Below, in pieces: positions 11,310-53,618 of a stretch of DNA of 64,000 nt. Source of the DNA: Bryoerythrophyllum caledonicum (Eukaryota > Streptophyta > Bryopsida > Pottiales > Pottiaceae); contig OZ020521.1 of NCBI GenBank assembly GCA_963971425.1, positions 6,589,519-6,653,518 of the forward strand. The letters run 5' to 3'. Under the pieces are notes generated by a model, which was not told where the DNA came from, did no database searches, and worked only from the letters and a program-made list of their open reading frames with translations. The translations under genes were made by a program, and so were the position numbers. The stretch's first letter is position 1. Every line of letters starts with the position of its first letter.

Positions 11310-12233
11310 CCCCTAAAGGACCACGACCTATTTCGCTCTAAAACCAGTCCAAAACCGCCACTGTCAAAAAGAGACATGAAAATCACATTTTAAAGTGAAT
11401 TTCGGATTTTCAACCGTAAGATCTTAAAATAGACTTCCATATAAACATGCCATCATATTTTGGTTGCAATCCACCGCACGGATTGATAGATTTTAGTGTT
11501 TAAAGTCAAAACAATGGTTCATTTTCATCCCTGCGTTGAGTAGATCAGCTGACTTTGACTTCATTTTGTATCAAATTTTTGCATTGTACAAGGTCTAAAT
11601 CTTTTACCATTGTCTTAAGCATGATGTTATTTCCCAACACACCAATTTTTAGAGGTAAAAAAGGGGTGTAGCATATTCAAAACAAGTGTGCAAGGAGTGG
11701 AGGTTCAAAAATTGCCATTTCACGTTTTATTTTTTTGTGAACTACAAATGTATTCAAATGATAATCCAAACGGTCAATAAGAAGGTTTTCACCATATATT
11801 GTTGTTGAAAAAAACAAAAGTGAAATATATGAAGATCTCTAAGTTTTATGTAGAAAAGATGAAGTTTTTTTCCCCCGTTGCCCGACAATGTGTGAAAATG
11901 TTTGACTTGGAATAAAATGCCTTTTTACACTAAAGACAAGAATTTTTTTTGAAAAATTCTAAATAAGGAAGTATTCTTTATGCGTGTGAAAAATCTCAAT
12001 GTCAATAGAAACTTTTGTCAAAAATTTTGGAGGTGCCCGAAGTCCCACTTTTGGCTTTAAGTGGTACTAACTTTCAAACCACAAATCCAAAAAAAAATTA
12101 AAAAATATCTCCACGAAGCTCTTATCAGATCCTATCTTGAAAAAAAAATTCAATTTAAAAGGATTTTTTTCGAATTGTAGGTACATGCCCAGAATCCAAA
12201 ATGACCCCGAGGGGACGTTTGGTCCTTTAGGGG
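11310..12233. mobile_element. piggyBac-like TTAA MITE, complete copy (924 bp)
   Basis: The ends CCCCTAAAGGACCA and TGGTCCTTTAGGGG are inverted repeats flanked by TTAA (11306-11309, 12234-12237). The right arm of the inverted duplication has a single TTAA at the same place (near 22605), which proves a TTAA-duplicating insertion. TTAA duplication with ends starting CCC is the piggyBac signature. The interior has no long ORF and recurs many times in the window. Confidence 0.92.
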
Positions 12234-15699: not shown

Positions 15700-16626
15700 C
15701 CCCTAAGAGCCCATTCAACCATGAAAGGATGTTTTTCATTTTAGGCAGGTTTTAAAAATTCGGAAAAAAATAAGTTCTTTTTGAAAAAATTTAACTAGAT
15801 TTTCCTTGAATAGATCTTTGTGTAATTTTTTATTTTAAAAAAATCATTATATGAAAGTTTTCAGCCTTCAATGTCAAATTTGGGACTCCGGCCAGCTCCA
15901 AAAGGTTTTCTAGACGTTTCTATTGACATTGAGATTTTTCATACATACAGTGAATATTACCTTTTTGAAGATGTCATTTTTTTTGTCTTTAGTGTAAAAA
16001 AAACATTTTATCCCAAGTCAAACATTGTTTTCACACATTGTTGAGCAATGAGCATGGTACCAAAAAAACTTCTTCTTTTCCACATGTAACCTAGAGATCT
16101 TTGTATTTTTTGTTTTTTATTTTTTTGACAACAACATGTGGTGAAAACCTTATTATTGACCGATTGGATTATCATTTTTAAACATATTAAGTTCACAATA
16201 AAATAAATTGTGAATTGGCAATTTTTGAACCTCCACTTCTTACACACTTGTTTTGAATATGCTACACCCCTTTCCTAGTACCTCTAAAAATTGGTGTACA
16301 AGGAACTAACATCATGCTCAACACAATGGTAAAGTATTTAGACCTTGTGTCTAAGTGCAAAATATGACACCAAGTGATGTCGAAGTTTGTTGATTGACTA
16401 AACGTTGGGAAGAAAATGAACCATTTTCTTGACTTCAAATGCCATAAACTTCATGTCCGTGCGGTTAATCGTAGCCAAAAAATATGGTAAGTCTATATTG
16501 AAGTATTTTTGAAGATCTTACTGTTAAAAGTCTAAATTTTTTTATTTAAACGGATTTTCTTGGCACTTGTCGTTAGTGGCAATTTTAGAGTGTTTCTTGA
16601 GAGAAAATGCCTTGGGCTCTTAGGGG
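15700..16626. mobile_element. piggyBac-like TTAA MITE, inverted copy (927 bp)
   Basis: It runs from CCCCTAAGAGCCC to GGGCTCTTAGGGG with target-site remnants TTGA and TAAC. The interior is the reverse complement of the copies at 11310 and 19100, for example the phrase GAATATGCTACACCCCTTTC near 16255. It encodes no protein. Confidence 0.85.
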
Positions 16627-19099: not shown

Positions 19100-20043
19100 C
19101 CCCTCAGATACCGTGACAGTTTTACACCAAAAACACTTCAAAATGAATGGATTCTAGTCCAATGAATAAAGAGGGTAAAAAAAACTTTGATTTTTAGTTC
19201 TGACTGTAGGATCTCAATAAAGGCTTATTGAGTAATACATGTACAAAATTTCATAAACTTTGACCGCACGGATTGAAAGATTATAGTGTTTGAAGTCAAG
19301 CAAATGGTTCATTTTCTTCCTTGCGTTTAGTGGATCAGCAGACTTTGACTTCAGTTGGTGTCAAAAAAATTTACAACACAAGGTCTAAATCTATTACCAT
19401 CTTGTTAAGCATGATGTTAGCTCCTTACACACCAAATTTTAGAGGTAGAGACCGGGTGTAGCATATTCAAAACAAGTGTGCAAGGAGTGGAGGCTCGAAA
19501 TTTGTTAATTCACATTTTAATTTTTTTGAACTTAATATGTTTTTGATTGATAACCCGAATGGTTAATAAGAAGGTTTACATTACATATTGTTGTGGAAAC
19601 AATAAAAAGTGAAAAATATGAAGATCCCTAGGTTTTATGTGGAAATGAAGAAGTTTTTTTGGTACCTTGCCCGACAATGAGTGACAATGTGTGAAAATGT
19701 TTGACTTGGGTTGGTATGCTATTTTTCACTAAAGACAAGAACTTTTTTTTGACGACATGAAGGGAAATAATATTACTTGCGAGTACTGAAAATCTCACTT
19801 TCAATAGAGTGTCCTATCAAAAGTTTTTGGAGGTGCCCGAGGTGCCCGAGCTCCCCATTTAAAATTCAAAACCCTATAACTTTTTCATCAAATGTCCAAT
19901 TTAGGAAAAAATTGTTTTCCCGCTAAGGTCTTGGTAATGTCTTTCTATAGTAAAAATTTCAAAGAAGAATGTTGGAAATTGACACCATAGGAATCTGACC
20001 GATTTTTCAAAAAGCCCGTTTTGGACACTTGGTCCTTTAGGGG
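19100..20043. mobile_element. piggyBac-like TTAA MITE, complete copy (944 bp)
   Basis: TTAA (19096-19099) precedes CCCCTCAGATACC; the right end TTGGTCCTTTAGGGG is followed by TTAT. The interior matches the other copies (for example GACCGCACGGATTGAAAGAT near 19261). It includes a local duplication GAGGTGCCCGAGGTGCCCGA near 19830. Confidence 0.88.
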
Positions 20044-22964: not shown

Positions 22965-24155
22965 GTGTGTGGGTAAGTTTTGTATATAGTCAATTCACAA
23001 TCATGGAGAATGTCCATAAATATTGGAAAAATTCAAGAGATTTGTCTAGGTGATACCCATGTAATGCCTTGGTGATATCCATTGTGTCCGAATGCCTTCA
23101 AAAAGGAAAAGTCATTAATTCCTAAATTTCTTTGACAATGTCACACCAAAAAAACTTCAAATTTGCTTGTTTTAGTGCAATGAGTAAGGACGAAACACAA
23201 AACTTTTACTTCTAGTTTTAACCGTAGGATCTCAATTAAGACTTACTAAGTAACTTACTTTGTAAATTTCATAAAGTTTGGCCGCACGGATTGTAATATT
23301 TTAGTGTTTGAAGTAGAGAAAAGGGTCCATTTTCTTCCCTGCATTTTATGGATCAACTGACTTTGACTTTACTTGGTGTCAAATTTTTGCACTACACAAG
23401 GTCTAAATTAATTTCTATCATGTTAAGCATGATATTAGTTCCTTGTACTCCAATTTTAAAAGGTAGAAAAAGGGTGTAGCATATTCAAAAAAATTGTGCA
23501 AGGAGTGGAGGTTCAAAAATTGCCAATTTTTTTATTTTTTTTTGGTGAACTTAGTATGTTTTAGAAATTAAGCAATTATGCACTTGGCCAAGTGCACTGG
23601 TTGTAGGTAGAAAGCCGCAAGTTATTTGCTCACAACTTTTTTTTAAATCAAAATTTGGCAAAAGTTTAGAATGTTTTATGTCAAATTTTTTGGTGTTCGT
23701 CGTGTCATACCTTGGCATCTTCATGTTCATATCAGTAATATATTTTTTACATTTGCTACCTTTTTTTAGAAAATATATGATATCTAATCTAGTTTACAAA
23801 TCCTGCTACAAAATTATAATCATGTGCCCAAAGAGATTATAAATTTGTTATGAGTTATTATAGGATTTTAGAGTAGTGCACTACAAATACAATGTGTAAG
23901 AGATACAAAAATATATATGCAATTTCCTAAGACAGTGTAAAGTACCTCATTGTATTTTATAATGCAAAAACATACATAATCAAGCAATTCCACACTATCG
24001 GTGAGGAATTCTAAAATCAAACATATCATGTGGGCCACCCAATATATAAATATATACCACCCACCGAACGATAGACACATCTCAAACTGCAGTATACTAA
24101 CGTATTTGCCACCTAAACTACGTGCATGCTCTACTATAGTATATAGCTCCAGGGC

Positions 24156-27100
24156 TTAGAGCTCATCTTCTGGCGGAACGACTCCCTCCACGTGTCCAAT
24201 GGCGCTACCTACTATAGCGGACAATTCATGATCCTGCACAAGACGATCTCCCACATCTTCGATGCCAATGGACGCACACTCAACATATCGGTAATTTCCA
24301 GGAACACCCTCCCGCGTATGCCTTACCCTATCATCATTGTAGAAAAAGCTATCCTCTTGATTAAAGGACATCTCTCGGTCTAACGAGAAGGCCCCCTGAA
24401 ATGCAATGATGTCCTCGGATACGCTAGATCTTGGAACGGAAGGCAAACCTAGTCCGGTATCACTCTGAGTACCTCCGAACGTCTCTTGTGTCTCCGATAC
24501 AGGCTCTGATTGAGAAGGCATCGAAGGCTGTCGAATCCTCCTCTGCACCGAAAAAAATTCCAATGAATCCAATTCTTCTTCCTCCATCTCCAACCTAGGA
24601 CCATCAAATGTACGCCCTCCTCCTACCGTTGCCGCCAAACCAACATCCACTACACGGGTATCTTGCATCCTCTCTGTAGGTGTTGCAGACGTCTCCTCTG
24701 AAGTATTTCCCACCGCCTGCTGCGTTGATGGAATCCTCTCTCTTGGAGGAGACTGGTTCACTCCATCTTCATCGGCGTCTCAACCACTGCGAGATGAGAA
24801 ATCGTCAGTGATACCTGAACGTGGCAATCTCTCATGTAAACCACCTCCATCCTCATTGTCGTCTTCATTCCTCACTCCACCAACCGCCTCTTCGGTCTCA
24901 GGTACGATGTTGCAACCAGTACTTGTTCCACCAGTCCTGACCAACAGTTGTCCTTGGAAGTTGTCGGACAACTCATTGTACAGGAATGAAACTCTGTCTG
25001 TACAATCGTCAATGATGAAAACCTCAGATCCCTGAAAATCTCCTTCAAGGATCGTGGGAATGGCTGTAGATATGTTACACGCCACTAAACCCCAACCACG
25101 GGGCAAGTATGAGCCCACTAGTCTTGCCAGCTTTGATGGAGATCTCTCAAGTGAATCAACTTCAGAGGGTTGGCGTGCCTCACTCCAGTGATCCAAGAAA
25201 ACAAGAGGAAGTAGAACGTCTCCAGAAACATAGTTTGGGCCAGGAGATGTACCCACAGGGTGCTGCATACAAATCACAATATCGCCAATCGGTTGTACTA
25301 CTTGCTCTAGACGCCCATTCTCTGTAAAATCGAGAGCATAGGGAATAACTGAGTTCGGATCAAACGCCCAACATCCACGTCGCATAGTACATCCCTCTGG
25401 AAGCTTCACCTTTGTGAAAAACTCTTCGTTGGCATACACGGCCGCTAGTAACAAGAAGATGACGTTCCATCGTTCAATATTTGCCATCCATAATGTCAGC
25501 TGTGCAAAAACTGCGGATAACTGGGCGTCTCCCCAATGACCATCTCCATGCCTCCCACCGCCACGTCGACAATCAATCACCCACAAACATGGTTTCCCCA
25601 ATTCTATGTAGTCGGTACGGAATAACCCTCTTCTACACCAAATCGGAAGAAGATTCTCTGTGTCGCTCTGGCCTGGCCTCTTGACTTCCATCTGCCATTC
25701 CCAATTAGTAGTAGCCTGTCCTCCCACATCCACGGACAATCTAATGTATCCACGTCCCCCTACTCCAATATCACCATAATGAAACCTGATGGAAGGAGGG
25801 ATGAGGTAGTCTATGTCTTCCAGCTTAGACACCTTTCCCCGCATAGGAGCAGTCCAAGCTTTTTTCGTAGTAGCATTCAAAAGCTTCCCAAAGATATCAA
25901 GTTGTGCGTTACTCCTCGGAAAATACTTCCCTACACGGATACGAAAGAACTCCTCCATGGAATCAGGTGTACTTTCCTTGTTCTCCACCATCAACCAACG
26001 GATGGAATTGATCACAGCTTCTCGTCTCTGATATCGGTCACAAACTCCGGCAATCGTACGAGGATGTGGATTCTTGTCTTTTACACCGTCGAAGTAGTAT
26101 GCTTGACGAGGTCTTACTCCATCTTCCGTCACGGGCTTCGCTGCAGCAGACTTTGCCAACCGAAGATAATATGGAATCGGAACCCTACCCAACAGCCTCA
26201 ACCAATTCTGGGTCATCTCCTTTCTTGTTGGTCGTACGTCCACATTTGGATCCAGTTCTTTCTTCCTCGCCATGTCCTTCCACTTGTCCTCTTCCTCCTT
26301 GCTGTAAAATAGAATGTCATCTTCGTAGTCCTTGCATACTTGAATGATAGCTTCGAAGCAGTCATTGCTCGGATTCCATGCATGATTGGTCAGATCCTCC
26401 ATGTTTTTGGCCAACCTCTTCACCGTGACAACTCCATCCCCCTTGGGCAACTTATGCACTGCACTTGCCGCACTCACCAAAGCAGCAACCCTGCGCGCAT
26501 CGTCCGCACGTAGTGTGCTGTCAGGCCTCCCGTATAGATCCCAAATTTGACGGAGCTTCCTCAAATCCTCCTCCATAGTAGAATACGACTGTCTCTGGAA
26601 CTCCGCCACGTTGATCCGCGCAGACTTCTCAATGTAAAAGCGACGATCATCATACACCACAAAAGACGCCTCCCGCCGCTCGAACGTGTCCATGTACTCA
26701 TTAGAAGGCATGGTACCATCGCTCCACTACTGCTGTGCAAACTTACAAGCTGCTACTATGTGTTGCCCATCCACCGGTTCCCAAATGATATGATCTTGAA
26801 GCCAAGAATACTGGGATCCCATAGCACCCTATGCAGAAGCACTTCCGTGTGCAATGAATATGCGCTCAAACTCTCGTGCGGTTCCTACCAACGGAAATGG
26901 CAGCTCCTCCTTCTCAACGACACCTTCATCGGTGGTAGTATGCACGATGTATCTGATCGGTCGAAGTACCAATCTACTCACCCGAGTCGCGGATTCAGGG
27001 TCTCTCAAGCGATTAAATACTACTTTGACCCTCTTTTGTGATAAAACCCGGTGATTCGTTTCCGGATTCTCCACAGAAACAATGCGGTCTATGTGTGCCT

Positions 27101-28121
27101 TAAACACAAAATTCCCCCACACTGATCCTTTTGCAATCTCCTCCGTTGTAGGCACTGGTGCTTTTAAATACATTGAAGTTGGAACATCCTGTGGTATCTC
27201 CGCATTGTCTTTAAAATCCTCTGGTATATTGTCTGGAAGGTTGTGAAAATCTTCTTCCTCCTGCGCCATGGCTGACAAATCAGCTAAATCTCCCGGTGTA
27301 GATGTAGGGGCCCTACGATGACCATCAGACGTCCTGAGCCCCGACCTACGAACCCTGCCACCCGATCTTGCACTTCTCCCATTCAACCTCCTCCCGCTTG
27401 GATCCAAACTTGATGGGCCTTCCCTTGAACCAGAAGCTACATCACTCTCAACACGCCGTGGCCTCTTCGTAGGACGTCTACTCGTTAATGGAGGATTCGG
27501 TATTGTCTGTACCTCAAAAGTTGTGGTGGGATGTTGGCCTCCACTTCCCCTCCCCCCCTCCAGTGGTCGCCAATCCAGTTGCAACGGCTCAGCAAGAACT
27601 CGATAAACTTCTGTTTCTTCTGGTTCCGTTGGTGGGGCTTGAGTTGTCGCACGTGATGGGTCTCTCTCCCGAAATGCCTCATATCTAGTATGTTCCTCCA
27701 TAATCCTCTTAGCCTTCAGCACCATCTCCGGTGATAACGCTAAACAGGCTAAGACGTTGTTGTGTCTAGCAGTACGTACCGCAAGAGAGATGTTCAACCA
27801 AAACGTCTGCAATGATTTGAGGAATTTCACCTGACCTGGATTTTGAAGAAGATTCAAAGGGACAGGTGCAAGAAGCAACTTCTTCGAAAGAGAAGTCTTC
27901 ACCTCCGATTGACCAGGACCTACTGCGCAAGTAACATATACCATATCATCAGGTCAAAGAGTGATTGCCTGAATTTTGCCAAAACTCTTCCCCAATGCCG
28001 ATGTACGCTTCCCCAACTCAAAGGGATAATCCGTCACCCACAAGAAGGCGTTCGACTCATCCACTTCCGCGATCCACCAGCCGTGGCTCTCCCAAATTCT
28101 GTCAATATTTGGTGGTGCCAT
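24156..28121 (-). pseudogene. Single long reading frame of about 1,320 codons with four in-frame stops
   Basis: From the ATG of MAPPNIDRIWES (28121) to the final stop at 24156 one frame is kept without any frameshift. It is interrupted only by TGA (27956-27954), TAG (26831-26829), TAG (26729-26727) and TGA (24782-24780). The segments are a short N-terminal piece, a 371-codon piece with a basic, NLS-like stretch (RPTKRPRRVE, GGRVRRSGLR), a 31-codon piece (MGSQYSWLQDHIIWEPVDG..), the 643-codon nuclease-like piece and a 201-codon acidic C-terminus. All four stops could come from single C-to-T changes (CAG to TAG, CGA to TGA); one follows two CAG codons. It is the second gene of the 11.9-kb transposon. 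It is either recently inactivated or read through. Confidence 0.75.
24780..26711 (-). CDS. Longest segment (643 codons) with a PD-(D/E)XK-like nuclease signature
   Basis: Starts MPSNEYMDTFERREASFVVY. The N-terminal half is helical and charged, with a KEEEDKWKDMARKKELD stretch. Residues about 325-415 read RLSVDVGGQATTNWEWQMEV followed by KRPGQ, then LWVIDCRRGG and QLTLWMANIERWNVIFLLLA. An aspartate followed about 15 residues later by E-x-K (EVK), then a Q-x-x-x-W-M helix, is the layout of PD-(D/E)XK nuclease-fold domains. This is inferred from motifs only, without a search. The C-terminal part (PIGDIVICMQHPVG, VFLDHWSEARQPSEVDS) is unrecognised. In a transposon such a nuclease could assist excision or target cutting. 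Confidence 0.45.
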   Translation of the reverse strand: MPSNEYMDTFERREASFVVYDDRRFYIEKSARINVAEFQRQSYSTMEEDLRKLRQIWDLYGRPDSTLRADDARRVAALVSAASAVHKLPKGDGVVTVKRLAKNMEDLTNHAWNPSNDCFEAIIQVCKDYEDDILFYSKEEEDKWKDMARKKELDPNVDVRPTRKEMTQNWLRLLGRVPIPYYLRLAKSAAAKPVTEDGVRPRQAYYFDGVKDKNPHPRTIAGVCDRYQRREAVINSIRWLMVENKESTPDSMEEFFRIRVGKYFPRSNAQLDIFGKLLNATTKKAWTAPMRGKVSKLEDIDYLIPPSIRFHYGDIGVGGRGYIRLSVDVGGQATTNWEWQMEVKRPGQSDTENLLPIWCRRGLFRTDYIELGKPCLWVIDCRRGGGRHGDGHWGDAQLSAVFAQLTLWMANIERWNVIFLLLAAVYANEEFFTKVKLPEGCTMRRGCWAFDPNSVIPYALDFTENGRLEQVVQPIGDIVICMQHPVGTSPGPNYVSGDVLLPLVFLDHWSEARQPSEVDSLERSPSKLARLVGSYLPRGWGLVACNISTAIPTILEGDFQGSEVFIIDDCTDRVSFLYNELSDNFQGQLLVRTGGTSTGCNIVPETEEAVGGVRNEDDNEDGGGLHERLPRSGITDDFSSRSG

Positions 28122-28189
28122 AACGCAACACTCAAAAAACCTGTATATCATTACAAAACCATAGTCACTATTAGTATGGAATAAGAATT

Positions 28190-28869
28190 TTTGAACCTCC
28201 ACTCATTGCACAACTTTTTTGAACATGCTACACCCCTTGTCTACCTCTAAAAACTTTTGCACCTCAGAAGATCTAAATCCAATATCATCGTGTTAAGCAT
28301 GTTGTTAGTCCTTTGGTGAAAAGGCATATTAATCCAAGTCAATTATTTTCACACATTGTCACAAATTTTCTGCTAAGGTACCAAAAAATCTTCTACATGT
28401 CCACATAAAACTTTGAGATCTTCGTATGATTCACTTTTGATTTTTCCTACGGCATTATATCATGTAAACCTTCTTATGGACCATTTGGTTTCTCATTTCA
28501 AACAACATCAAGTTCCCCAAAAGAGAAAAACGTGAATTGAGAATTTTTGAACCTCCATTCCTTGCACAATTTTTTTAAATATGCTACACTCCTTTTCTAC
28601 CTCTAAAAACTTTTGCACTACACAAGATCAAAATCCAATAGCATCGTGTGAAGCATGTTGTTAGTTCTTTGGTGAAATAGCACGCCAATCCAAATCAATT
28701 ATTTTCACACATTCTCACACATTTTCGGCCAACGTACCAAAGAAACCACTACCTTCCCACATAAAACTTTGAGATCTTTGTATGATTCACTTTTTATTTT
28801 TCCTACAGCATTATGTGATGTAAAACTTCTTATTGACCATTTGGATTCTCATTTAAAACAATATCGAGT
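28190..28869. repeat. Two tandem fragments of the TTAA MITE, cut by the assembly gap
   Basis: Two segments of about 350 bp, each starting near GAATTTTTGAACCTCCA (28187, 28539) and running through TGCTACACCCCTT- and AAGCATGTTGTTAG-type phrases, are successive fragments of the 0.93-kb family. The second runs into the N stretch. They are a local duplication of a MITE fragment within the large transposon. Confidence 0.75.
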
Positions 28870-29069
28870 NNNNNNNNNNNNNNNNNNNNNNNNNNNNNNN
28901 NNNNNNNNNNNNNNNNNNNNNNNNNNNNNNNNNNNNNNNNNNNNNNNNNNNNNNNNNNNNNNNNNNNNNNNNNNNNNNNNNNNNNNNNNNNNNNNNNNNN
29001 NNNNNNNNNNNNNNNNNNNNNNNNNNNNNNNNNNNNNNNNNNNNNNNNNNNNNNNNNNNNNNNNNNNNN
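28870..29069. other. Assembly gap (200 N)
   Basis: A run of 200 undetermined bases, a conventional placeholder length, so the true size is unknown. The length of the 11.9-kb transposon is therefore approximate. Confidence 0.99.
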
Positions 29070-29239
29070 CGCAGCAAAAACGCGAGGGCAACCTTGCCTC
29101 ACAAAACCTAATTTTTATGCCTCTAATTCAAACTTGAAGTGCAGATTTTAATGGCCACTTACGAAGCTCTCCCTCACCGTCGTCGAGAGGTTGCACGCGA
29201 CAGGAAGTTATCGGATGGAAGGAGGAGCACCAACTTGTG

Positions 29240-29400
29240 GGGGTGTGCGCGCGCACACCCCATGAGGCGTCACGCGAACTCCATGGGTTTCATTTTTAGG
29301 GTTTGGGTTTCCGGTTGCGGTGGCTAGGGTTTGGTTGTGGCGGCTAGGGTTTGGTCGCAGTGGCTAGGGTTTGGTTGTGGTGGCTAGGGTTTAGGGTAGT
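29240..29400. repeat. 22-bp GC palindrome and 20-bp tandem repeats with TAGGGTTT
   Basis: GGGGTGTGCGC followed by its complement GCGCACACCCC (29240-29261) is a perfect palindrome. From 29311 to 29400 four to five 20-bp units of TGGCTAGGGTTTGGTTGTGG type follow, ending TAGGGTTTAGGG, a plant-telomere-like motif. The setting is GC-rich compared with the flanks. Confidence 0.85.
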
Positions 29401-30330
29401 GGGCTGATGTGCCATACCATGGTTTTAATACAATACTACGGGCTACTCTCATTATTGAAGTTCTCAGTGGATTTTGGTGTCACTCTTTGATGTCACTAGT
29501 TGACTCACTAGTTGTAAACATCTTACTTCTATTGAATTTGTAATCTTTGAACATACTGAAGTGGATGTTTTCATTTGGGTGCTCAACTCTTGGTTCTGCT
29601 CACCTTACACTATTGTATCTCTGACTAATCTTTAATCATCATGAATCTAATACTGGAGTTCCCTCATATTCAGAATTGAAACAAGGTCAGAAACTTACCA
29701 AATTTGCAAGAAACTTTTCAATGTTCAAATTTCCTCCAATCTACACACTACACACAAGTTGACAGAAATTAGTGAATGAAGTAAAAATACACATGGCCTT
29801 GAGGTTTCGATTGCAAGAGAGCTCACCTTAGAAACTGAGATGGGAAGAGACCTCTAGATTTGCATAGAAACCTTATATCCTTGTTGGAACCTTGTGCTCC
29901 AAGTTTACTAGTCAAAGTTTGACTTTAGAACTTTGGACCTTTTGCTTTGTTTCTCCTTTTGTTTAAGCTTTTTACATATTATATTAAAAAAATTGGCTAT
30001 AGCCTACATGTAATTCAAAGATACTTGGGATTTTTTATCACATAGTTTACCATATAAATTTTATGCATATGTTGCAGGTACAGTGGGAAGGGTTGGAAAA
30101 CATGTTCAACAACAACGACATAATGTTGAATTAATGTTGAACGCCATCAAGCATTAGTGCGTGTACCGCTAACACCTGCAACGCATCTTCAGGTAAACAT
30201 TTATTTTTATACAAGTTTAAGATTGATTGTTGATTGATCTTCTATACTATGTAATTTATAGAAAAACCTTTATGTGGATGTATAAACCCTTTCATTTATT
30301 AGCGATTGTAACAAATTCCAATAGTGTCAG
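29401..30330. other. No gene recognised
   Basis: AT-rich DNA with no ORF or repeat that I can support. It lies in the divergent intergenic region of the large transposon and might hold its promoters. Confidence 0.4.
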
Positions 30331-30512
30331 TAATAGCAAGTAGACAACATGGTTCATTTTCTTCCCTAGATTCAGTGGAATCCCTTCATTTCAGTTCACT
30401 TGGATTCAAAAGATTACATCACACATGATCTAGATTCATTATCATCATGTTAGAAATGATGTAAGTTCCATTTTACACCAATGTTTAGGGATGCAGAAGA
30501 GGTGTAACATAT
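30330..30512. repeat. TTAA MITE internal fragment
   Basis: Phrases such as GGTTCATTTTCTTCCCTAGA and the TCTAGATTCATTATCATCAT stretch match the interior of the 0.93-kb family in forward orientation. It abuts the complete inverted copy at 30517. Confidence 0.65.
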
Positions 30513-30516
30513 TTAA

Positions 30517-31467
30517 CCCCTAAAGGATCAATTGACAAAAATGGGCTTTTTGAAAGTTCGGTCATGTTCCTATGGTGTCAATTTCCAACATTTCTCTTTG
30601 AAAATTTTATCATAGAAAGGCATTATCAAGACTTTAGTGGGAAAATAGTTTTTACCTAAATTGGACATTTGATCAAAAAGTTGAAGGGTTTTGAATTTCA
30701 AATGGGGAGAGCGGGCAAGTCGGGCAAGTCGGGCACGTTCAAAAACTTTTGCTATGACACTATGTTGAATGTGAGATTTTCGGTACTTACAACTAATACT
30801 ATTTCCCTTGATGTTGTCAAAATAAGTTCTTGTCATTAGTGAAAAATAGCATATCAACCCAAGTCAAACATTTTCACACATTGTCAGTCAGTGTTGGGCA
30901 AGGTACCAAAAAAACTTTTTGTTTTCCAAATAAAACCTAGATATTTTTTTATTTTTCACTTTTTATTTTTTCCACAACAATATGTGGTGTAAACCTTCTT
31001 ATGACCATTTGGATTACCAATCTAAAACATATTAAGTTCACAAAAAATTATAGTGTGATTTAAGAAATTCCAAACTTCCACTCCTTGCACAATTGTTTTG
31101 AATATGCTACACCCGTTCTCTACCTCTAAAAATTGGTGTACAAAGAACTAACATCAAGCTTAACAAGATGGTTATGGATTTAGACCTTGTGTAGTGCAAA
31201 AATTTGATAGCAAGTGAAGTCAAAGTCTGTTGATCCACTACACTCAGGGAAGAAAATGAACCATATGCTTGACTTCAAACACTATAATCTTTCAATCCAT
31301 GCGGTCAAAGTTTATGAAATTTTGTTTTATATTACTTAACAAGCCGTAATTGAGATTCTACGGTCAAAATTAAAAATAAAAGTTTTTGTTTCCTTTTTTG
31401 TTCATTGCACTAGAATCCAAGAATTTTGAAGTGTTTTTGGTGTAAAACTGTCATTGTACCTTCAGGG
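30517..31467. mobile_element. piggyBac-like TTAA MITE, inverted copy (951 bp)
   Basis: TTAA at 30513-30516 precedes CCCCTAAAGGATCAATTG. The right end TACCTTCAGGG is followed by TTAA (31468-31471). The interior is the reverse complement of the family. It inserted upstream of the DUF7869-like gene. Confidence 0.88.
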
Positions 31468-31689
31468 TTAATGACTCTGTGCAAGGAGTTCATGCTCTAC
31501 AAATTCTTAATTTTTTCATTTCAAAGTTGTTTTATCAAAAGGTCTAATATCATCATCATATTTTGAACAGTGAATATGTATTTAGAAATATATCTTTTAT
31601 CAAATGAATGGTGCTTTGAAGGTTAACAATTAGTACATGTATTTTGACTAATGTGCAGCCATAATGTTCTTATTTTTTCAGTAGTGATA

Positions 31690-34600
31690 ATGGACATCCG
31701 CACGATTCAGACTCCTTCGATACGGCCACACATCCAAAGGGATAATATGCACTCCAATAGCTCTATGGGGGCTCGATTAGTACGAGCAGCACGTGCAAGG
31801 CAAATTCAACAAAGATCTGTTGGGATCAGAACATCTGAATTGGAGAGGACAGTTGAATTGTTTTCTGAGAAAAGAGATGTGGTGGGCTTAGCAACGAGGG
31901 AGCATGCATTCAAAAGTGGCATGGAATTGAATGGGTCAAAGTTGTTCCCATTTGAGGTGGCAGTGCGTATCATTAGGGTTGATGATGCATTGCATTGGAC
32001 TGGAGAGATTGTAGGAGAACGCCTTGGCATGTGTGTGGGCTTGATCATTCGTTGGCATCGATCTTTGCTACGTGTAGTGACTGTAGAACCTGATATCACA
32101 AGTGTCCATGGTGACATTGGATCACAGATAGCGCCTACAGAAGTGATGGCCCCAGAATTTGATTTTCCTGAGCTCATCAACACACCAGGATCCACCCAGA
32201 GGTCTCGACGCAGTAGTCATGCTTCAAATGCGGAAGATGAAAATTTGCCGTTTTCCCAGCCTACTCCCTCAAACATCCAAGATTTGCCCCATATAGATGG
32301 ATTTGCTTATGTTAGACCAGCACGTCGTCCATATTCTATGCAAAATAGGAGAAGGAAAGATTCTAGGGAGCCATCATTGATAGAAGCTGCACCATCTAAG
32401 GTATCGCTTAGAAGCGTGCAAATTGCAATGGCACAAGGAGGATGCAAACGCAATTGTTTGAGGGACGTTCCACCAAGGTATCTATTGGACATGCGATATA
32501 TTGCATGGGGTAATGAGTTTTCAGTTCGAAGTACGTGGATGAGACAGATGCTAGTTTCTTTTTACACAAGGACGGAAGGAACTCGTCGAGACAAGTTTGT
32601 AACAAAGTTAGATGGGAAAGAAGTTTGCAATGCTTGCTACGCTCTTGGAGTTGGATATTCACAGAGGCGCTTTAAGCAATTGAAGGACTGTCTAATATAT
32701 GGAAGAGTAACATCGATTCACGGCAATACCCTTTCAGATCCGATAAGAAAGAGTACTAGAATGTCTGCAGCAGAGGCTTGCTTTAAATCGTTTGTCGATG
32801 AAACTGGTTGTCCTCAACCTCATCGCTGTATTCGCCGTAAGAGTGACAACGAAGTGGTGCCTCTCATTCTCCTTCCTATGAATACAACTAAATTTGATGT
32901 ATTCAATTACGTGAACGAGGAGGTCAAGAGTATTTGTAATGGGGAAACCATTTCTATGAGTTCGTTCCGGAGGATGTGGCGCATCAAGTATCCCCACGTT
33001 CAGGTACCTCCATTCTCGAGATTCTCAAAGTGTTATCATTGTTGGGAGTATAAATGTGCCATGGAAGGAACCACCAATGCGGATGCAAGGATAAACAGAA
33101 AGGAGTTGTTTATGTTGCATCTACGCAATCAAATGGAAAAACGTAGGCATTATTGGATATTCAAGAGGTCGTGTTATATTAGCCCTGAGTTGTACATGTG
33201 CATCATAGTGGATGGCATGGACCAAAACACGACCATGGTACCGAGGATGCGTCAGACTGTGAAGAACATTGAGCACCGGTTTGTGAAGACCCATCTGTGT
33301 GGTGCTCTTGTACATGGCATTGGTTTATATTGCGACGTGTGGTTTAAGGCTCACCACAAACACGATAGCAATCAAGTCGTGAGTACATTGTTGTACATGA
33401 TTGGAGATGTGCTGCGGAGAAGGGGCTTTTTGCCACCAACATTGCGGATTCAGGCCGACAACTGCACGCGTGAGAACAAAAATATTTATATGTTTGCTCT
33501 ATGTGCTACATTGGTGGGATTGAGGTTTTTTCAGGAGGTGGAACTATCTTTTCTTATAGTGGGCCATACCCACGAAGATATTGATCAACGTTTCAGTTGT
33601 ATATCAAATACGTTGAAGAGGTCGGACGTCGACTCGTTGAAGGAAATGATGAGTCTTATAGAACGAGGAACATCTCCTACGAAGTCATTTGTTAGCGCCC
33701 GACTGCTAGAGAATGTATGGAATTGGAAATTGTTCATAACTCCTCACTTACTGACAGGTCAGGATTCATTGGTGGGCATAACATTTCCGCACCACATGCG
33801 ATTTTATATGGACAATCGAGAAGGGGCTCGTGAGGTTCGAGTACAACACAAGCATTATTGCAAGGATCCATGGGGACCGGAGGCAGGGACGAAAACTTTG
33901 AGGTCGTTGCCAAATAGGGATGAACGACCATCGTTTGCAGAAGTATTTGCAGCGGACGAACGGGAGTTGAAGGCGTTGGATGACTTCATTGCATATAAAC
34001 AAAGGTGCATTCAAAGGTTGCAGCTTGAGGACAAGAATCGTGAGGCAAAAGTAGAGGCTGAAAGATTGAAACTCTATTTAGCTCAATTTCCACACAAAGA
34101 CCGTAGCAATGAGCATCGTACCACACCGTTTTGGCCTTCAGAGTTCTCCAACACCGGACCTACAGGGAGCGCATCTTTGGATGTAATGGATGGTACAAGT
34201 GAAGAAAACCGGGAGATAAATGTCGTAGAGCAGGTAGTGGACATGCTTCCAAATGCCGAGGCTCGAGGATACTTTGGTCCTCGTAGAGGAAGACCCTCTA
34301 ATCAAGCAGTGCGTAGGGCACAACAAACAGAGCGCAACTGTGTTGAGGAATGCGCCGAAGAAGGAACAACGTATGAAGGTAATCACGACCCATTTCCACC
34401 ATTTAATCCACAATCTGATATCCGTTGTGGACAATTTGTAGCCTTGAGTGTTGATCGAGCAGAGATAGAAGGCGGTGTACCATTCTATGTGGGGAAAGTA
34501 ATTGAGGAAGGAAAAAACCGATGGAGACTTAAGATAAAGGTTTGTTGGTATTGGCCCATCATCCAAAGGGGGGTTGCTGATGGACATGGGTCTTCTGCAC

Positions 34601-34878
34601 AACGGTATGCAAATTGCATGGACTCAATCTGGGAGCCATCTGGGGAGAGCCATAGTTGGGTAGAGAAAGATGCATGCATTTTTTCATGGGTAGACACACC
34701 GGAAAGAACCATGTCCGGGGCCAGCGGGTGCAGAAAGCGCAATGTATTTGGAGTGCAGGTTGAAAGCAGGATTCGCATTCTTCAGTCGGCAAAGGCTCAC
34801 ATCCTACAATATATTGCAATGCAAACCGAAGCTATCGATGACGACCGTTTGCAAGCAGCCCTAAATTCTATGGAGTAG
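31690..34878 (+). CDS. DUF7869-like, putative DDE-type transposase, intact
   Basis: An uninterrupted frame from MDIRTIQTPSIRPHIQRD (1,062-1,063 residues). An ATG 39 bases upstream (31651) is also in frame, but a TTTTTTCAG acceptor-like site lies between, so I prefer 31690. The first 250 residues are basic and serine-rich. A cysteine pair region VCNACYALGVGYSQRRFKQL follows, then FSKCYHCWEYKC. The core has VDGMDQNTTMVPRM, RIQADNCTRENKNIYMFAL and VGHTHEDIDQRFSCISNTL, conserved in DUF7869 proteins. Their acidic residues fit an RNase H-fold D,D,D/E catalytic set. Further on, a coiled region (FIAYKQRCIQRLQLEDKNRE) precedes a C-terminal module with YVGKVIEEGKNRWRLKIKVCW and SIWEPSGESHSWVEKD, like an SH3/BAH-type fold. 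It is the likely transposase of the surrounding 11.9-kb element. The DDE assignment is by motif only. Confidence 0.8.
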   Translation: MDIRTIQTPSIRPHIQRDNMHSNSSMGARLVRAARARQIQQRSVGIRTSELERTVELFSEKRDVVGLATREHAFKSGMELNGSKLFPFEVAVRIIRVDDALHWTGEIVGERLGMCVGLIIRWHRSLLRVVTVEPDITSVHGDIGSQIAPTEVMAPEFDFPELINTPGSTQRSRRSSHASNAEDENLPFSQPTPSNIQDLPHIDGFAYVRPARRPYSMQNRRRKDSREPSLIEAAPSKVSLRSVQIAMAQGGCKRNCLRDVPPRYLLDMRYIAWGNEFSVRSTWMRQMLVSFYTRTEGTRRDKFVTKLDGKEVCNACYALGVGYSQRRFKQLKDCLIYGRVTSIHGNTLSDPIRKSTRMSAAEACFKSFVDETGCPQPHRCIRRKSDNEVVPLILLPMNTTKFDVFNYVNEEVKSICNGETISMSSFRRMWRIKYPHVQVPPFSRFSKCYHCWEYKCAMEGTTNADARINRKELFMLHLRNQMEKRRHYWIFKRSCYISPELYMCIIVDGMDQNTTMVPRMRQTVKNIEHRFVKTHLCGALVHGIGLYCDVWFKAHHKHDSNQVVSTLLYMIGDVLRRRGFLPPTLRIQADNCTRENKNIYMFALCATLVGLRFFQEVELSFLIVGHTHEDIDQRFSCISNTLKRSDVDSLKEMMSLIERGTSPTKSFVSARLLENVWNWKLFITPHLLTGQDSLVGITFPHHMRFYMDNREGAREVRVQHKHYCKDPWGPEAGTKTLRSLPNRDERPSFAEVFAADERELKALDDFIAYKQRCIQRLQLEDKNREAKVEAERLKLYLAQFPHKDRSNEHRTTPFWPSEFSNTGPTGSASLDVMDGTSEENREINVVEQVVDMLPNAEARGYFGPRRGRPSNQAVRRAQQTERNCVEECAEEGTTYEGNHDPFPPFNPQSDIRCGQFVALSVDRAEIEGGVPFYVGKVIEEGKNRWRLKIKVCWYWPIIQRGVADGHGSSAQRYANCMDSIWEPSGESHSWVEKDACIFSWVDTPERTMSGASGCRKRNVFGVQVESRIRILQSAKAHILQYIAMQTEAIDDDRLQAALNSME

Positions 34879-35946
34879 ATAGTGTGCCTTTTTTAGAGTA
34901 TACTAGTTGTGTATGGTAATTGATATATAGTGTATGTGTAAAAGTAGTATATTCTAAGGGTGATGTAAGACGTTATGTCATTAATCCTTTAGAGTAAAGC
35001 TGTGTTTACTATTGGTGCTAAGTCCAATTGTTGAAGCATCTATATTTAGTTTTCACCATTGTATGCATTATGTACTATGTAGAATATCTTTTAATCAACT
35101 GCCAACCCTTGCAAAAAGTATGTTTTTTTGTAATTACGTCTGTTTATATACTACAATTCTTCAAATCTATCTTTGGAATATTGTGAAACTATATTAAATA
35201 CACATTTATCTAGTATTAACGAGGGGCCACCACAAATTAGTTGAAAATGCCAAAAAATCGCTTCCAATATGAACAACCATGATTATACATAATATTGTTG
35301 TAGAAGCTCAATTTTTTTTCCTTAGGAGAACATTTTTTTTCTTTGATTTTTTTTTTTTTTTTCAATTTTGCCACTTTTGTTCGAAATGGCCGCCGTTGTA
35401 TCCAAGTGCACTTTTAAATGGCCAAGTGCATAATTGCTTAATTGCGTGTTGAATGAGAATCCGAACGGTCAATAAGAAAGTTATCACCACATAATGTTGT
35501 GGAAAAAATAAAATGTAAAAAATATGATGTTTTCAAAGTTTTATGTAAAAATAAAATAAAAATTGGTACCTTGCCCGACAATGTGCAATAATGTCACAGC
35601 AGATTTGACTTGGATTTATATGCTTTTTCCACTAAGGACAAGAGATTTGTTTGACAATTTGAGAGGAAAAAATATTACTTGCTAGTATTGAAAATCTCAC
35701 ATTCAATAGAGTGTCCTAGCAAAAGTATTTGGAGTTGCCCGACGTGTCGCTCTCCTCACTTAAACTTCAAAACCACATAACCTTTCCATTTAATGTCCAA
35801 TTTAAAAAAAAAATTGGATTCACACAAAGCTTTTAGTATTGTCTATCTACATCAAAAATATCAAAGAAAATTCTTATAAAATTACACCGTAGGAACTTGC
35901 CCGAACATTCTTGAGCCCCCCGAGGGGACTTTTGGAAATTTAGGGG

Positions 35947-36519: not shown

Positions 36520-37431
36520 TAACAAACTCACACCAAAACCGCATAAAAATGTAGACTATGTTGTAGGGTGTAAAGGCAATAATCTTGGTCTTTTCTAAAG
36601 TTTTGACCGTAGGATCTTGAACACGTCTCAGTCATTAACATGCCTACAAAATTTCACAAACTTTGACCGTACGGATCGGAAGATTATAGTGTTTGAAATG
36701 TAGGAAGATGTCATTTTCTTTACTCCTTTGAGAGGTTCAGCTGACTTTGACATCACTTGATGTGAAGTTTTTGCACTATAAAATATGTTAATCTATTACA
36801 ATCATGTTGAACATGCAATCAAATCCTTGTTCACAAAATTTTAGAGGTTGGGGAGAGTTGTAGCATTTTCAAAAAATTGTGCAAGGAGTGGAGGTTCAAA
36901 AACTATCAATTCACGTTTTATTTTTTGTGAACCTAATATGTTCTAGAATGAGAATCCGAATGGTCAATGGAAAGGTTTACACCACACAATGCCGTGGAGA
37001 AAATATAAAGTAAAAATATGAAGATCACTAAGTTTTATGTGGAAAAGAAGAAGATTTTTTGGTACTTAGACCGACAATGTGCGACAATGTGTGAAAATGT
37101 ATGACTTGGATTTATATGCTATTTTTCACTAAAGACAAGAGATTTTTCTTGACAATATGAAAGGAAATAATATTATTTGTCGTTGTTGAAAATATCACCT
37201 TCAATAGAGTGTCTTAGCAAAAGTTTTTGGAGTTGCCCTACGGGCCCGCTCTCCCCATTTGAACTTCAAAACCGTATAATTTTTTATTAAATGTGGGATT
37301 GAGGAATAACTTGGACTCACACAAAGCTTTTAGTAATGTCCATCTACAATATTTTTTTGAAAAAGAATGCTAGAGATTGACACAAGAGGAACTTGTCCGG
37401 TCCTTCAAGGTTAATCTTGGTAATTTAGGGG
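36520..37431. mobile_element. piggyBac-like TTAA MITE, left end damaged
   Basis: The forward copy is readable from ACACCAAAACCGCATAAAAA through GACCGTACGGATCGGAAGAT to GGTAATTTAGGGG, followed by TCAA. The left TTAA and CCCCTAAAGG end are not recognisable. Confidence 0.78.
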
Positions 37432-38608: not shown

Positions 38609-38880
38609 ATTGACCAAGTGCATATTTAGCAAATTCCATGTTAAACGTAGAGTTCTTTGTATTTTTCAATTTTTATTTTCTTTGACAACATGTGGTAAAA
38701 ACCTTATTAATGACTGATTGGATTATCATTTTAGAACATATTAAGCTCGAAATTTTAAAAAAATGTGAATTGGCAGATTTTTGAACTTCCACTCTTTACA
38801 CACTTGTTTTGAATATGCTACACCCCTTCTGTACCTCTAAAAATTAGTGCACAAGGAACTAACGTTGTCGTGAAGGAATT
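38609..38880. repeat. TIR-like sequence of the large transposon followed by a MITE fragment
   Basis: TGACCAAGTGCATATTTAGC at 38609 resembles the right terminal repeat of the 11.9-kb transposon (TGGCCAAGTGCATAATTGC). It is followed from 38637 by an inverted internal fragment of the TTAA MITE (CCTTATTAATGACTGATTGG). This repeats the transposon-end-next-to-MITE arrangement seen at 35443 and may be the right border of the deletion derivative. No matching left end was found. Confidence 0.5.
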
Positions 38881-41220: not shown

Positions 41221-41699
41221 TTTGGAGGCTTTCAAGTTTCAAAATTGTTCTTCCAAGTTAATATTTTTTTTTGTCAAGGGTGGTTAAAAAATTAGAGATC
41301 ACTGTAGTGACAAGTGTACAATTTGCATTCACTCAATGAAATACTCGTCATTCATGGAGTGTAAAATATGCCAGATAATTGTGAAGCAAAAAATATGTCA
41401 TTCAATTTAAAACCAAAGATTTACAAAACCGTAGTGGCAATTGACCTCCTGCTATTGTACTGTACAAGATCACCAATAACACGCACACTTTTCTTATTGA
41501 AACACGTAGCCAAAGTCCACCTTAAAAGTATACTTCCAAATTTTCTCTTTATCCAACATCACTGGAAGTAATATGGCACCAAGAAACACGAAACCACAAC
41601 ACACTCAATACCCAACTCTCCCAAAAACTTCTAAAAAAACTCATCTCAAAAAATATTCTTGAATTAAAACAAATCACTTTACCAGACGGCACACATATC

Positions 41700-43258
41700 A
41701 TGAACAATGAAGATTTTAAAACCTTCCACTTCACCCCATTCAAACTAATCAAAAGTGCCCTAAACGTTGCCAAACAACTTTTCTGCCAACCAACATGCCC
41801 CACCACATGCAATACCCCCTGCAACATACATCCATACTCATACCCACTCCAGGATCCATTCATCACCAACAACAACATCATTCCAAGAAACACCCCCCCA
41901 CCAATCCATCCTCCCAACCCCTCACATCCATACCATCCCCGCCCTCCAATATACATCCCCAAAAATTCCACCACCTACCCCATTAATAGCATCATATATC
42001 ATGAACATATACAACACAAAGATACTAACAATATACAATACACCTACACAAGGTATTTATGTCAATGGCAACACAACAACCATACATTCAACAAAGGGCT
42101 TCCTCAAAGAAACCTTTTCCCACAACACGACCATAACACCTCCACATACAACACTGAAAAATTAAAAAAATATTATCAAAGAATCCAAAATAAAATCTTC
42201 TCGGAAATCATTCAAGCCCACCACCCCCAAGAACAATCTCAAGACTCAAGATCCGTAACTCCACCCATAATTATCCCACTTCTAAACATCTATACAACGA
42301 AATGTAATCTCGAAAATGAAATTCTCACACTCTTGAACACAATTAAAATAGATAAAAACCAAGCACACCTACATGAAGAAAATGGCCGACATTTATTCAC
42401 CATTCCTACTGCTAGACTCCAATGGCTATGGAATCAATATACTATGAAACTACAAACTCCCACAAACATCGAGCCAACAACCCAATCATTTGAAACCGAA
42501 TTAATTTGGCTATACCAAAGATATAAACACCGAATCCCAAAAAATAATCCCCTCAAAAACACACAATATACAATACCCACACCCATTTTAAACTCATTAA
42601 TCACATTCTTTAACATTGAACAATCATACTTCTCTTCCTCCATAACATGCCCCACTAGACTCAAAAAAATTTACTCCCCCTTTGAAAGAGATAAAATATT
42701 TGCTCCTTGGGAAAGACCTTTGATTACAAATGGACCGGTAATGGCATCGCTCACCCGCACAATGAGGAGGAAACACAACAAGCTCTACATTGGGCCCGCC
42801 TTGCTGCTAAAAATGACCCACACCACACATCTACACTCATCATCACACCAGACAAAAATTGGTACCAAAACTTTAACCAAGAGTCAAGTCCATTTGTAGA
42901 CTCCCATATCATTGCAATATTTGAAGGAGACTCAATCCCATACAAAGAACCTATTATTCCATCTGAACTAAAAAAGCCTTGGATCGAACCATCTACATTA
43001 CAAATAATATGTATAATGTGTCCACCACCAAAATCAGACCCTTGGCACCTTAGAACAACTAGACGAGCTTACCTCTATAGCAAAAACTCTAAACATACAC
43101 CGGATATTCACAAATATGGCCCCACCGACACCTATACAAACACCCATCAACAAAAACAAAAAATGGACAAAACTAAACTACAACAACAATACACTAGATT
43201 ACCTCTTAACACTACCACCCCTCCCGGACTACCAAACTACCACCGCACCAAAATTTAA
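41700..43258 (+). pseudogene. LINE ORF2 linker between RT and RNase H (truncated copy)
   Basis: Frame 41700-42899 shows KLIKSALNVAKQLFCQPTCP, a proline/histidine-rich stretch, then LCQWQHNNHTF, LPQRNLFP, ARLQWLWNQYTMKL and YSPFERDKIFAPWE, all with counterparts in the longer copy. After a frameshift near 42700 it continues as KTFDYKWTGNGIAHPHNEEE and ARLAAKNDPHH. No enzymatic motif is known in this linker. Confidence 0.75.
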
Positions 43259-44768
43259 CCCCGCATATAGCTACTACACCAATGGCTACTTCAAATCGCC
43301 TGAACAAACTAGCTCAGGGAATTGGCATAGAGAAAAAGCCGGGTATGGAATATACAATTCTTCGAAAGAAATCAAATTAGCCAAAAGATTGCATGGACTA
43401 CAAAATATCCTCATAGCAGAACTCATGGCCATCCACAAAACACTAGAAATTGTCACAACAAAATACAACAATGAGCCAACGCACATATTCACAGACTGCA
43501 TTAACGCACTATACTTACTAAACACCCAAATAACACACTCTACCCTCCACAATAGCCACCCCGACCAAATCATACTAGAATCAATGATCCAAATGATACT
43601 AAAACAAAGACAAGTCACAACCCTCTACAAAGTTAGAGCCCATGCCAATATTGATGGTAACGAACAAGTAGATAAACTTGCAAAAGAGGGCCGAGAAAAA
43701 TCACACAAAAATGCCAATGATCCACACGAACACGCCCACGCCACCCTATACTACTTCCAAAAAGAAGACTGGCCCTCCAAAGAAGACACCCCCAATAAAG
43801 GGCCGGTTAGATTCTTAAGTAAATACCTCAAAAAACAAGACCTATATAATAACCTTGATACAATCTCAGATAACTTCCCCAACATAGAAAAGTGGACTAG
43901 TAATAACAACATAGACAATGAACTCTCTACAAAATTCTGAAAAAACCCCATCATCATCGACTCACAAATAACATGCCTTATAAAATTCCGTACCGGACAA
44001 TACATGGGAGACGCCTGAAAACAACTCTTCTTTGGAATAGAAAGATTCCCATCCATAACATGCCCAATATGAACTACCACGGATCCAGACACATGGCTAC
44101 ATGTTTTACTTAAATGTCATAACCACCACATCCACTCCCTAATTGTCAAAAGACATAACAAAGTTGTATGGGAAATCCATAAATTAATCACCTCCCATAA
44201 TAAATCGGGATGTTTTATCCTCATGAATGCCGGCACCTTCAATAACAACCCACAAGAAAATACATTTCTACCATGGCTACTCTCATGTACATGTGAAACT
44301 CAACGATGCCACTGCAATGCTCGACTCAAACCAGACATACTCTGCATTAGAGGTCTACCATACAATGACCTCCCACCAAACCACATTAACCAAAGCTACA
44401 CCATTCAGTTCATCGAATTTACATACTGTAATGACAGGTTCTCCCCAGAAACAATCGAAAATAAAATCAATAAATATCAACCCCTTATTGATGACATCAC
44501 TACCCTCAGATGGAAAGTAGACCCCCTTATTGTAATCACAGCCGGCGCTCGTGCCACCACCTTCATCCCATCTATAAAAACCCTAGGAGATACCTTCAAA
44601 ATTCCTATTGATATAATTACAAATACCTTCAAAAATATTAATGTCATTGCCATACAACATGCTATGTCCATCCTTCTACATAAGCGCAAAATTGAAAACA
44701 ACCAAGCACTTCCTGATACAGAAGACCCCCCCCATAAAACTACCCCTTTATTGTATTTATTACCTTGA
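43116..44768 (+). pseudogene. LINE RNase H and zinc-knuckle C-terminus (truncated copy)
   Basis: RNase H motifs are YSYYTNGYFK, AELMAIHKTLEI, HIFTDCINALYLLN and RAHANIDGNEQVDKLAKEG. The first catalytic aspartate (TDG in the other copy) is asparagine here. The frame then hits TGA at 43938 where the other copy has Trp, TGA at about 44016 where it has Arg, and TGA at about 44070 where it has the second Cys of CPIC. The C-terminal domain resumes in 44223-44768 (FIEFTYCNDRFSPETIENKI, VDPLIVITAGARATTFIPS). Confidence 0.85.
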
Positions 44769-51557: not shown

Positions 51558-51833
51558 TAGTGCCAAACAACGCTGTAATAGAAAGAAATACAATAGTATA
51601 TATATATACTACACTATGTATTAAAATAATCGAGAATACTTATTATAATAAATTAAAATAAAAAAATACATAGTATATTTATATACTACGAAACATAACA
51701 AAAACAATAGAAATATGGAAAAAAAATATAAAATAGTATATACCAAAATATATACTATACAGAAAGTCGATAAAAATATATATAATAGAAAAAACATAGT
51801 ACACCTATATAATACAAAACAATTTAAACACAT
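51558..51833. other. AT-rich spacer between ORF1 and the CAA tract
   Basis: A run of ATATAT/TAGTATAT-like sequence with no ORF of interest. A TAA at 51825-51827 closes the glutamine frame just before the CAA tract. Confidence 0.6.
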
Positions 51834-53535
<1,702 letters not shown>

Positions 53536-53591
53536 AACAACAACACTACCCTACCACAATCTACCTCTGTAAAATACTAATACTTTTCAGC

Positions 53592-53618
53592 GGTGACATT
53601 GAAAAAAACCCAGGCCCC
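53592..53618 (+). other. 2A-like ribosome-skipping motif before LINE ORF2
   Basis: In frame with ORF2 and directly before its ATG (53619), the sequence encodes ILILFSGDIEKNPGP, then MPN. GDIEKNPGP fits the 2A consensus D-[V/I]-E-x-N-P-G-P, and the hydrophobic run before it is typical of 2A sequences found in non-LTR retrotransposons. At such motifs the ribosome fails to form the Gly-Pro bond and continues, releasing two proteins. It implies that the glutamine-rich frame upstream was or is translated. Confidence 0.85.

Follow-up and report, generated by a model that had tools for sequence, protein, structure and literature searches.

A high-copy, probably Sola-like transposon of the moss Bryoerythrophyllum caledonicum pairing a DUF7869 gene with a ParB-methylase-like gene

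What kind of mobile element carries two long divergent genes between short inverted ends, and what would the second gene contribute to it? This question is raised by an insertion of about 12 kb in a 64,000-nucleotide stretch of the moss Bryoerythrophyllum caledonicum (GenBank assembly GCA_963971425.1, contig OZ020521.1, positions 6,589,519 to 6,653,518 of the forward strand; the whole stretch is hereafter the window, and positions are numbered within it unless a chromosome is named). A first-pass annotation had described the insertion as a two-gene DNA transposon of unassigned type, encoding on opposite strands a DUF7869-like protein with DDE-like acidic motifs (gene B here) and a PD-(D/E)XK-like protein (gene A). 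Taken as a whole, the locus is best explained, and we consider this a good deal more probable than the alternatives weighed below, as one member of an abundant, Sola-like family of cut-and-paste DNA transposons, with a DUF7869 transposase and a ParB-methylase-like accessory protein.

Borders, target site and genomic copies

The inverted-repeat listing of the window contained a perfect 25-bp inverted pair (23566-23590 and 35419-35443), as the first-pass annotation had claimed. The 20-mer end of the element matched the window only twice, at the two termini (at most three mismatches; chance mean 0.01). In the 437-Mb genome exact matches to it were encountered 757 times in forward and 771 times in reverse orientation, compared to 0 and 0 for the reversed-motif control, and chance ends were ruled out by these genome counts and the within-window chance mean. 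It was noted that the ends of the family extend 7 bp outward from the 25-bp pair (left AACACGC, right GCGTGTT), and the right border previously set at 35443 is therefore 7 bp short. The end begins AACACGCAATTAAGC..., and at least 27 bp are common to the ends (AACACGCAATTAAGCAATTATGCACTT).

We assessed end pairs defined as a forward followed by a reverse 20-mer at most 17 kb apart, and 28 such pairs were picked by eye among 100 places listed of 1528. Fifteen of the 28 measured 11-17 kb and the others 2.2-8.8 kb, from which we infer full copies and deletion derivatives. Of the 28 pairs, 25 had the exact outer 7 bp at one end or more and 18 had it at both, the remaining pairs carrying one or two substitutions on a side. 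A perfect 4-bp target duplication was found directly outside the ends in 20/28 pairs (18/26 plus 2/2), compared to 4-bp agreement in 12 of 650 mismatched left-right pairings used as a control. Where two right ends lay in tandem (L057/L058), the outer one was chosen by hand, and the first fraction would otherwise be 17/26. Without the hand-set end, the end-adjacent bases agreed over 4 positions in 17/26 pairs, over 2 in three, and over 3, 5, 6, 7 or 8 in none; 4 bp is the sole favoured duplication length. Other copies with common borders and a duplication of fixed length, which the first-pass annotation had proposed to look for, were thus recovered, and inverted ends common to many copies together with a fixed-length target duplication are the marks of a cut-and-paste transposon with terminal inverted repeats.

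The flanks of the window copy are the two halves of one host repeat (456 and about 447 bp), in agreement with the first reading, in which the two halves of a putative MITE add up to normal length. Three copies of this repeat, whole or nearly so, cross the insertion point uninterrupted (19114-19993, 36599-37348 and, on the minus strand, 30563-31476). The matches of the two flanks overlap at this point in the first two copies (19546/19543 and 36947/36946) and are separated by a 5-bp gap in the third (31016-31020). The uninterrupted junction in the repeat copy at 36599 reads CTAGAATGAGAATCC, and the window copy reads GCGTGTT followed by GAATGAGAATCC at its right junction and TTTTAGA followed by AATTAAGC at its left. 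Based on a comparison of these junction letters, the target duplication of the window copy would be GAAT, and the left border would have lost about 9 bp, comprising the outermost 7 bp of the inverted repeat plus some of the duplicated bases. The outer 7 bp of the family are present on the right side only (35444-35450).

The 4-bp duplications and the insertion into a repeat demonstrate past mobility of the family. The window copy is an old, worn member of this high-copy family, and with its left end clipped, gene A broken and gene B open it probably cannot move unaided. The approximately 0.9-kb host repeat recurs, in copies or pieces, at 11474-12043, 15983-16439, 19114-19993, 28162-28860, 30563-31476, 36599-37348 and 38660-38862, some of them nested within the transposon. 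The intergenic region of the transposon also holds a tandem 20-bp repeat of TAGGGTTT-like units (29293-29412) and a run of N at about 28870-29090, between genes A and B.

The two divergent genes and their predicted products

Two long divergent genes are enclosed by the ends, in line with the first description, with gene B on the plus and gene A on the minus strand (Table 1). Across the family, either gene forms a single open frame in many copies. Gene B is intact, with an open frame of 1076 codons, of which 1062 are counted from the first Met, and the earlier call of a DUF7869-like protein was borne out by a strong match to PF25273. Among 6995 candidates scored from a database of 5.8 billion proteins, we found 11 relatives at 52-82% identity, several of them full length and none carrying an informative name. 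The motifs VDGMDQN, ADNxTRENKN and GHTHEDIDQRFS were identical in all 12 aligned rows (x aside), and the first and third acidic motifs also occur in L059 and L062, intact subfamily members that are 45% and 39% identical to gene B. The spacing of D522, D604 and E643/D646 fits the expectation for a DDD/E enzyme. Because of the DUF7869 domain and these conserved acidic motifs, gene B is likely a DDD/E transposase. The DUF7869 domain was scored at 150 places in the genome (3608 candidates), no match was obtained in any of 14 control genomes, and the domain was named in no paper of the literature searched.

Gene A was found as the single frame of about 1,320 codons annotated before, interrupted in the window copy by four premature stops (27954-27956, 26829-26831, 26727-26729 and 24780-24782) that had gone unmentioned. 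Elsewhere in the genome (68 places scored of 1306 candidates) many copies run without a stop, as one frame that reaches 1344-1348 codons, and introns were therefore rejected as the source of the in-frame stops. With the window copy counted, gene A has the 20-mer end on its 3' side in 29/30 loci fetched, the exception being L013, and a divergent gene B was encountered within 12 kb of at least 30 of the 68 gene A places. The neighbour count drew on 70 gene B places (43 plus 27 of 150), the latter being picked by eye in a manner that favours neighbours. Two gene A copies 20 kb apart (G000:C9:11438633 and C9:11458394), equal in score and open-frame length and with one TAG each, possibly represent a segmental duplication.

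Nine relatives of gene A at 37-64% identity, all with long open frames, were identified among 8000 candidates scored, and repeating the profile search with the gene A alignment added none to these nine, the eight proteins listed all being among them. Scans of viral contigs (gene A and gene B alignments) and of bacterial and archaeal contigs (gene A) gave no confirmed relative, and a viral or bacterial origin by sequence was dropped.

A reading of gene A as ParB plus methylase was set down before the fold-search result came in. In the fold searches, the predicted core matched structures of ParB and of beta-class DNA methylases in the PDB, and the PD-(D/E)XK identity of the first-pass annotation was replaced by this result. 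The predicted structure shows both the ParB-CTPase fold of the ParB/sulfiredoxin superfamily and the permuted Rossmann fold of beta-class N6/N4 methylases, and it supports a fusion of a ParB-like domain and a beta-class methylase fold in one protein. Alignments to three viral proteins (458-507 amino acids; one of them named ParB/Sulfiredoxin and belonging to a tailed phage) span 755-787 columns of the core, which has 791 residues, at 8-10% identity. By sequence, the best match of genes A and B to solved structures had an E-value of 0.36.

With these two products, the DDD/E transposase of gene B would cut and join the element ends. The gene A protein would serve as a DNA-binding accessory: its ParB-like part would load it onto the element or the ends, where it may assist end pairing and transposition or shield the element from host silencing.

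Table 1. Positions of the transposon copy, its genes and its insertion site within the window
Feature	Position	Strand	Remark
Transposon copy as it stands	23566..35450	.	Outer 7 bp of the family kept on the right, absent on the left
Left terminal inverted repeat, truncated, without the family's outer AACACGC	23566..23590	+	Other copies carry AACACGC outside their 20-mer
Right terminal inverted repeat including outer GCGTGTT	35419..35450	-	
Inferred target duplication of 4 bp, right copy (GAAT)	35451..35454	+	Part of the left copy is among the roughly 9 bp lost
Left half of target host repeat	23110..23565	+	Flank alignment to other repeat copies
Right half of target host repeat	35449..35895	+	Its first 2 bp also belong to the inverted repeat, regarded as a coincidental match
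Gene A, 1321 codons from Met at 28121, broken by four in-frame stops	24156..28121	-	
ParB-CTPase-like region of gene A	26601..27113	-	P0013 residues 337-507; motif IIWEPVDGQH
Beta-class DNA-methylase-like region of gene A	24957..25688	-	P0013 residues 812-1055; DCRR replaces DPPY
Intergenic region between genes A and B	28162..31476	.	Further host-repeat copies or pieces and N run
Gene B, open, 1062 amino acids from Met, probable transposase	31690..34878	+	Open-reading-frame listing, domain search, relatives
DUF7869 domain match, PF25273, E 1.3e-50	33277..33828	+	Profile search
Candidate catalytic acids D522 (VDGMD), D604 (ADNxTREN), E643/D644/D646 (GHTHEDID)	33211..33585	+	P0001 numbering

Competing readings of the element

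Several observations weigh against a Sola-like transposon with a DUF7869 transposase and a ParB-methylase-like accessory. The 4-bp duplication was imperfect in 8/28 pairs, seven being off by one base and one by two. The full-length model of gene B was poor (mean predicted local distance difference test score, pLDDT, 38.3; nearly all residues 480-760 below 50). The DDE-like acidic motifs described in the first pass were invariant in all 12 rows and a transposase core is likely, but the search pattern for the middle motif, around D604, was unmatched in the distant subfamily genes L059 and L062. The model of gene A was of moderate quality (pLDDT 62.5; predicted template modelling score 0.38), and the whole-core viral alignments had a root-mean-square deviation of 21-31 and template modelling scores of at most 0.31. 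Gene A gave no convincing match to Pfam or the PDB by sequence, and the ParB-methylase case rests on the predicted model. The proposed likeness to the published element Sola1-1_Ec32 is one of described gene content and arrangement.

Other DUF7869 subfamilies of the genome bear on the same point. No gene A relative was found within 9 kb upstream and 1.7 kb downstream of the intact gene B relative at L059/L060, or within 5.3 kb upstream and 1.5 kb downstream of the one at L062. Because intact DUF7869 subfamilies occur without a nearby gene A relative, gene A may be dispensable for movement. No trustworthy end repeats were recognised at L059/L060 and L062. At L061 we encountered another divergent pair, with gene B 77% and gene A 59% identical to the window genes and one stop in each in the part fetched, and the end motifs of the family were not found there. 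Gene copies lacking these ends had been named beforehand as evidence against the transposon, and such copies do exist in part; however, the common borders of the family stand, because the gene B copies without these ends belong to distant subfamilies. L059 itself (G000:C9:16367300-16377299) holds an intact 1087-codon DUF7869 gene, and the same score was obtained at C3:18240523, C9:4860007 and C9:4884169, the four equal-score places suggesting recent copies.

Among the rival explanations, the one that fares best is a separate, unnamed DDD/E superfamily, not Sola, in which a ParB-methylase gene was taken up independently. We regard this as a possible explanation that falls well short of probable, since the 4-bp duplication and short ends fit Sola-type elements (PMC3627910, on Sola2; papers with such numbers are cited here from excerpts) and a ParB-methylase gene opposite the transposase has been described for Sola1-1_Ec32 (PMC12477816). 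What speaks for a separate superfamily is that the Sola placement draws on the duplication, the ends and the gene pairing.

The remaining rivals concern gene A and depend on its active sites. Beta-class N6/N4 methylases carry a catalytic (D/N/S)PP(Y/W/F) motif, such as DPPY, and an FxGxG motif that binds S-adenosylmethionine (SAM), and the ParB/sulfiredoxin superfamily has a conserved nucleotide-pocket arginine in a DGQHR-type motif. In all ten aligned rows (gene A and its nine relatives), DCRR occupies the methylase catalytic position and (D/N/S)PP(Y/W/F) was not found; the sequence of the SAM loop is CNISTAI or close to it, FxGxG being absent, and the ParB signature reads DGQHI or DGQHV. With other conserved residues standing in for the catalytic and SAM motifs, gene A is probably not a standard DNA methylase, and its conservation down to 37% identity argues for a retained function other than ordinary methylation. 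A role of gene A as a working N6-adenine or N4-cytosine methylase that marks the DNA of its own element, as proposed for algal proteins, would accord with the predicted beta-class fold and with the N4-methylcytosine (N4mC) or N6-methyladenine (N6mA) prediction for the Ectocarpus protein (PMC12477816), but it appears unlikely given DCRR in the place of DPPY and a SAM loop without FxGxG.

Selection on gene A bears on whether the gene is a passenger that plays no part in movement and persists only by hitch-hiking. Among 14 open copies, the ratio of nonsynonymous to synonymous change had a median of 0.27 and a range of 0.18-0.73 (89 of 91 pairs; two without synonymous change were dropped), and the gene A frames are under purifying selection. 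This selection and the long open frames that persist down to 37% identity among the nine relatives make the passenger explanation quite improbable, even though some intact DUF7869 elements lack gene A nearby in the DNA fetched and the window copy pairs a dead gene A with an open gene B. We find it just as doubtful that gene A is a nuclease, of PD-(D/E)XK type or a ParB-type nicking enzyme, working with the transposase: the ParB-adenine methylase Bce_0392 is able to nick DNA (PMC5512222) and the stretch WEWQMEVK is superficially (D/E)XK-like, but this stretch (model residues about 518-525) stands at the start of the methylase-aligning part, and neither a PD-(D/E)XK nuclease nor any other nuclease fold is among the 50 matches listed for each fold search.

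The reading of gene A as a ParB-methylase-like accessory can be extended, tentatively, to a more specific proposal. A phage-type ParB-methylase fusion could have been domesticated by a eukaryotic transposon, with both active sites exchanged for new residues that are invariant or nearly so (DGQH[I/V], DCRR), and put to use on the element's own DNA as a ParB-type clamp or reader that does not methylate, for example for pairing ends 12 kb apart or for blocking silencing, in a genome with about 750 exact ends per side and with DUF7869 as its hitherto unnamed transposase family.

Under the Sola-like explanation, DUF7869 acquires a concrete probable role, that of a transposase. The ParB-methylase accessories of algal transposons would be extended to a variant in which the methylase chemistry is apparently lost and the protein is still under selection. 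A single genome with copies in the hundreds, many of their genes intact, makes it testable whether such accessories act by DNA binding alone or by DNA marking.

Neighbouring repeats and comparison with known systems

Translations read by eye also revealed non-LTR (long terminal repeat) retrotransposon-like open reading frames at 51828-54776 (plus strand) and 55153-60630, with reverse-transcriptase-like and RNase H-like stretches. The frame at 51828-54776 contains GDIEKNPGP, which we take to be a 2A-like peptide motif, ahead of an endonuclease-like stretch. A 1.6-kb ACA(n) tandem array adjoins this retrotransposon (51830-53442; 107.5 copies of a 15-bp unit, 98% match), and a second, partial related retrotransposon was read at 41526-43940, with its RNase H-like stretch in a separate frame.

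Sola1 transposons have a 4-bp target duplication with short ends, and a 4-bp duplication with short ends was found in the moss element. By analogy, the moss element is probably Sola-like, and Sola1-like in particular, because its gene pairing has been published for Sola1-1_Ec32 (PMC12477816) and 4-bp duplications are known in Sola2 (PMC3627910). Of the earlier description, the two-gene DNA transposon thus stands, and the label of unassigned type was too strong. Sola1-1_Ec32 of the brown alga Ectocarpus is 21.5 kb long and encodes, opposite its transposase, an 1104-amino-acid protein with a ParB-like and a DNA-methylase domain that is predicted to make N4mC or N6mA (PMC12477816). The fold matches and the divergent orientation of the moss genes place the same type of gene opposite the transposase, and both elements are giant DNA transposons. 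However, the second protein of the moss element has 1321 amino acids, the element measures 11-17 kb (15 full-size pairs of 28), and its methylase active-site motifs are lost.

Short inverted ends and 4-bp duplications are also shared with Sola2 elements; the Sola2 families of that account carry Fanzor1 and have AT-rich targets, and its excerpt makes no mention of a ParB-methylase gene (PMC3627910). KolobokP resembles the moss element in combining a DDD/E-type transposase with a second protein on the complementary strand, and differs in that this protein is a His-Me finger nuclease, its duplications are TTAA-specific and it has long terminal direct repeats (PMC9587614). In phages, a ParB-CTPase fold is often joined to a predicted DNA methylase (PMC12704722), and a ParB domain is joined to an adenine methylase in Bce_0392 (PMC5512222). 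Such phage and bacterial fusions resemble gene A in having a ParB-CTPase and an N6/N4 methylase domain in one protein, whereas the moss protein, at 8-10% identity, belongs to a eukaryotic transposon and has its catalytic motifs replaced. As for DUF7869 (PF25273), in the moss element this domain sits inside a bounded transposon.

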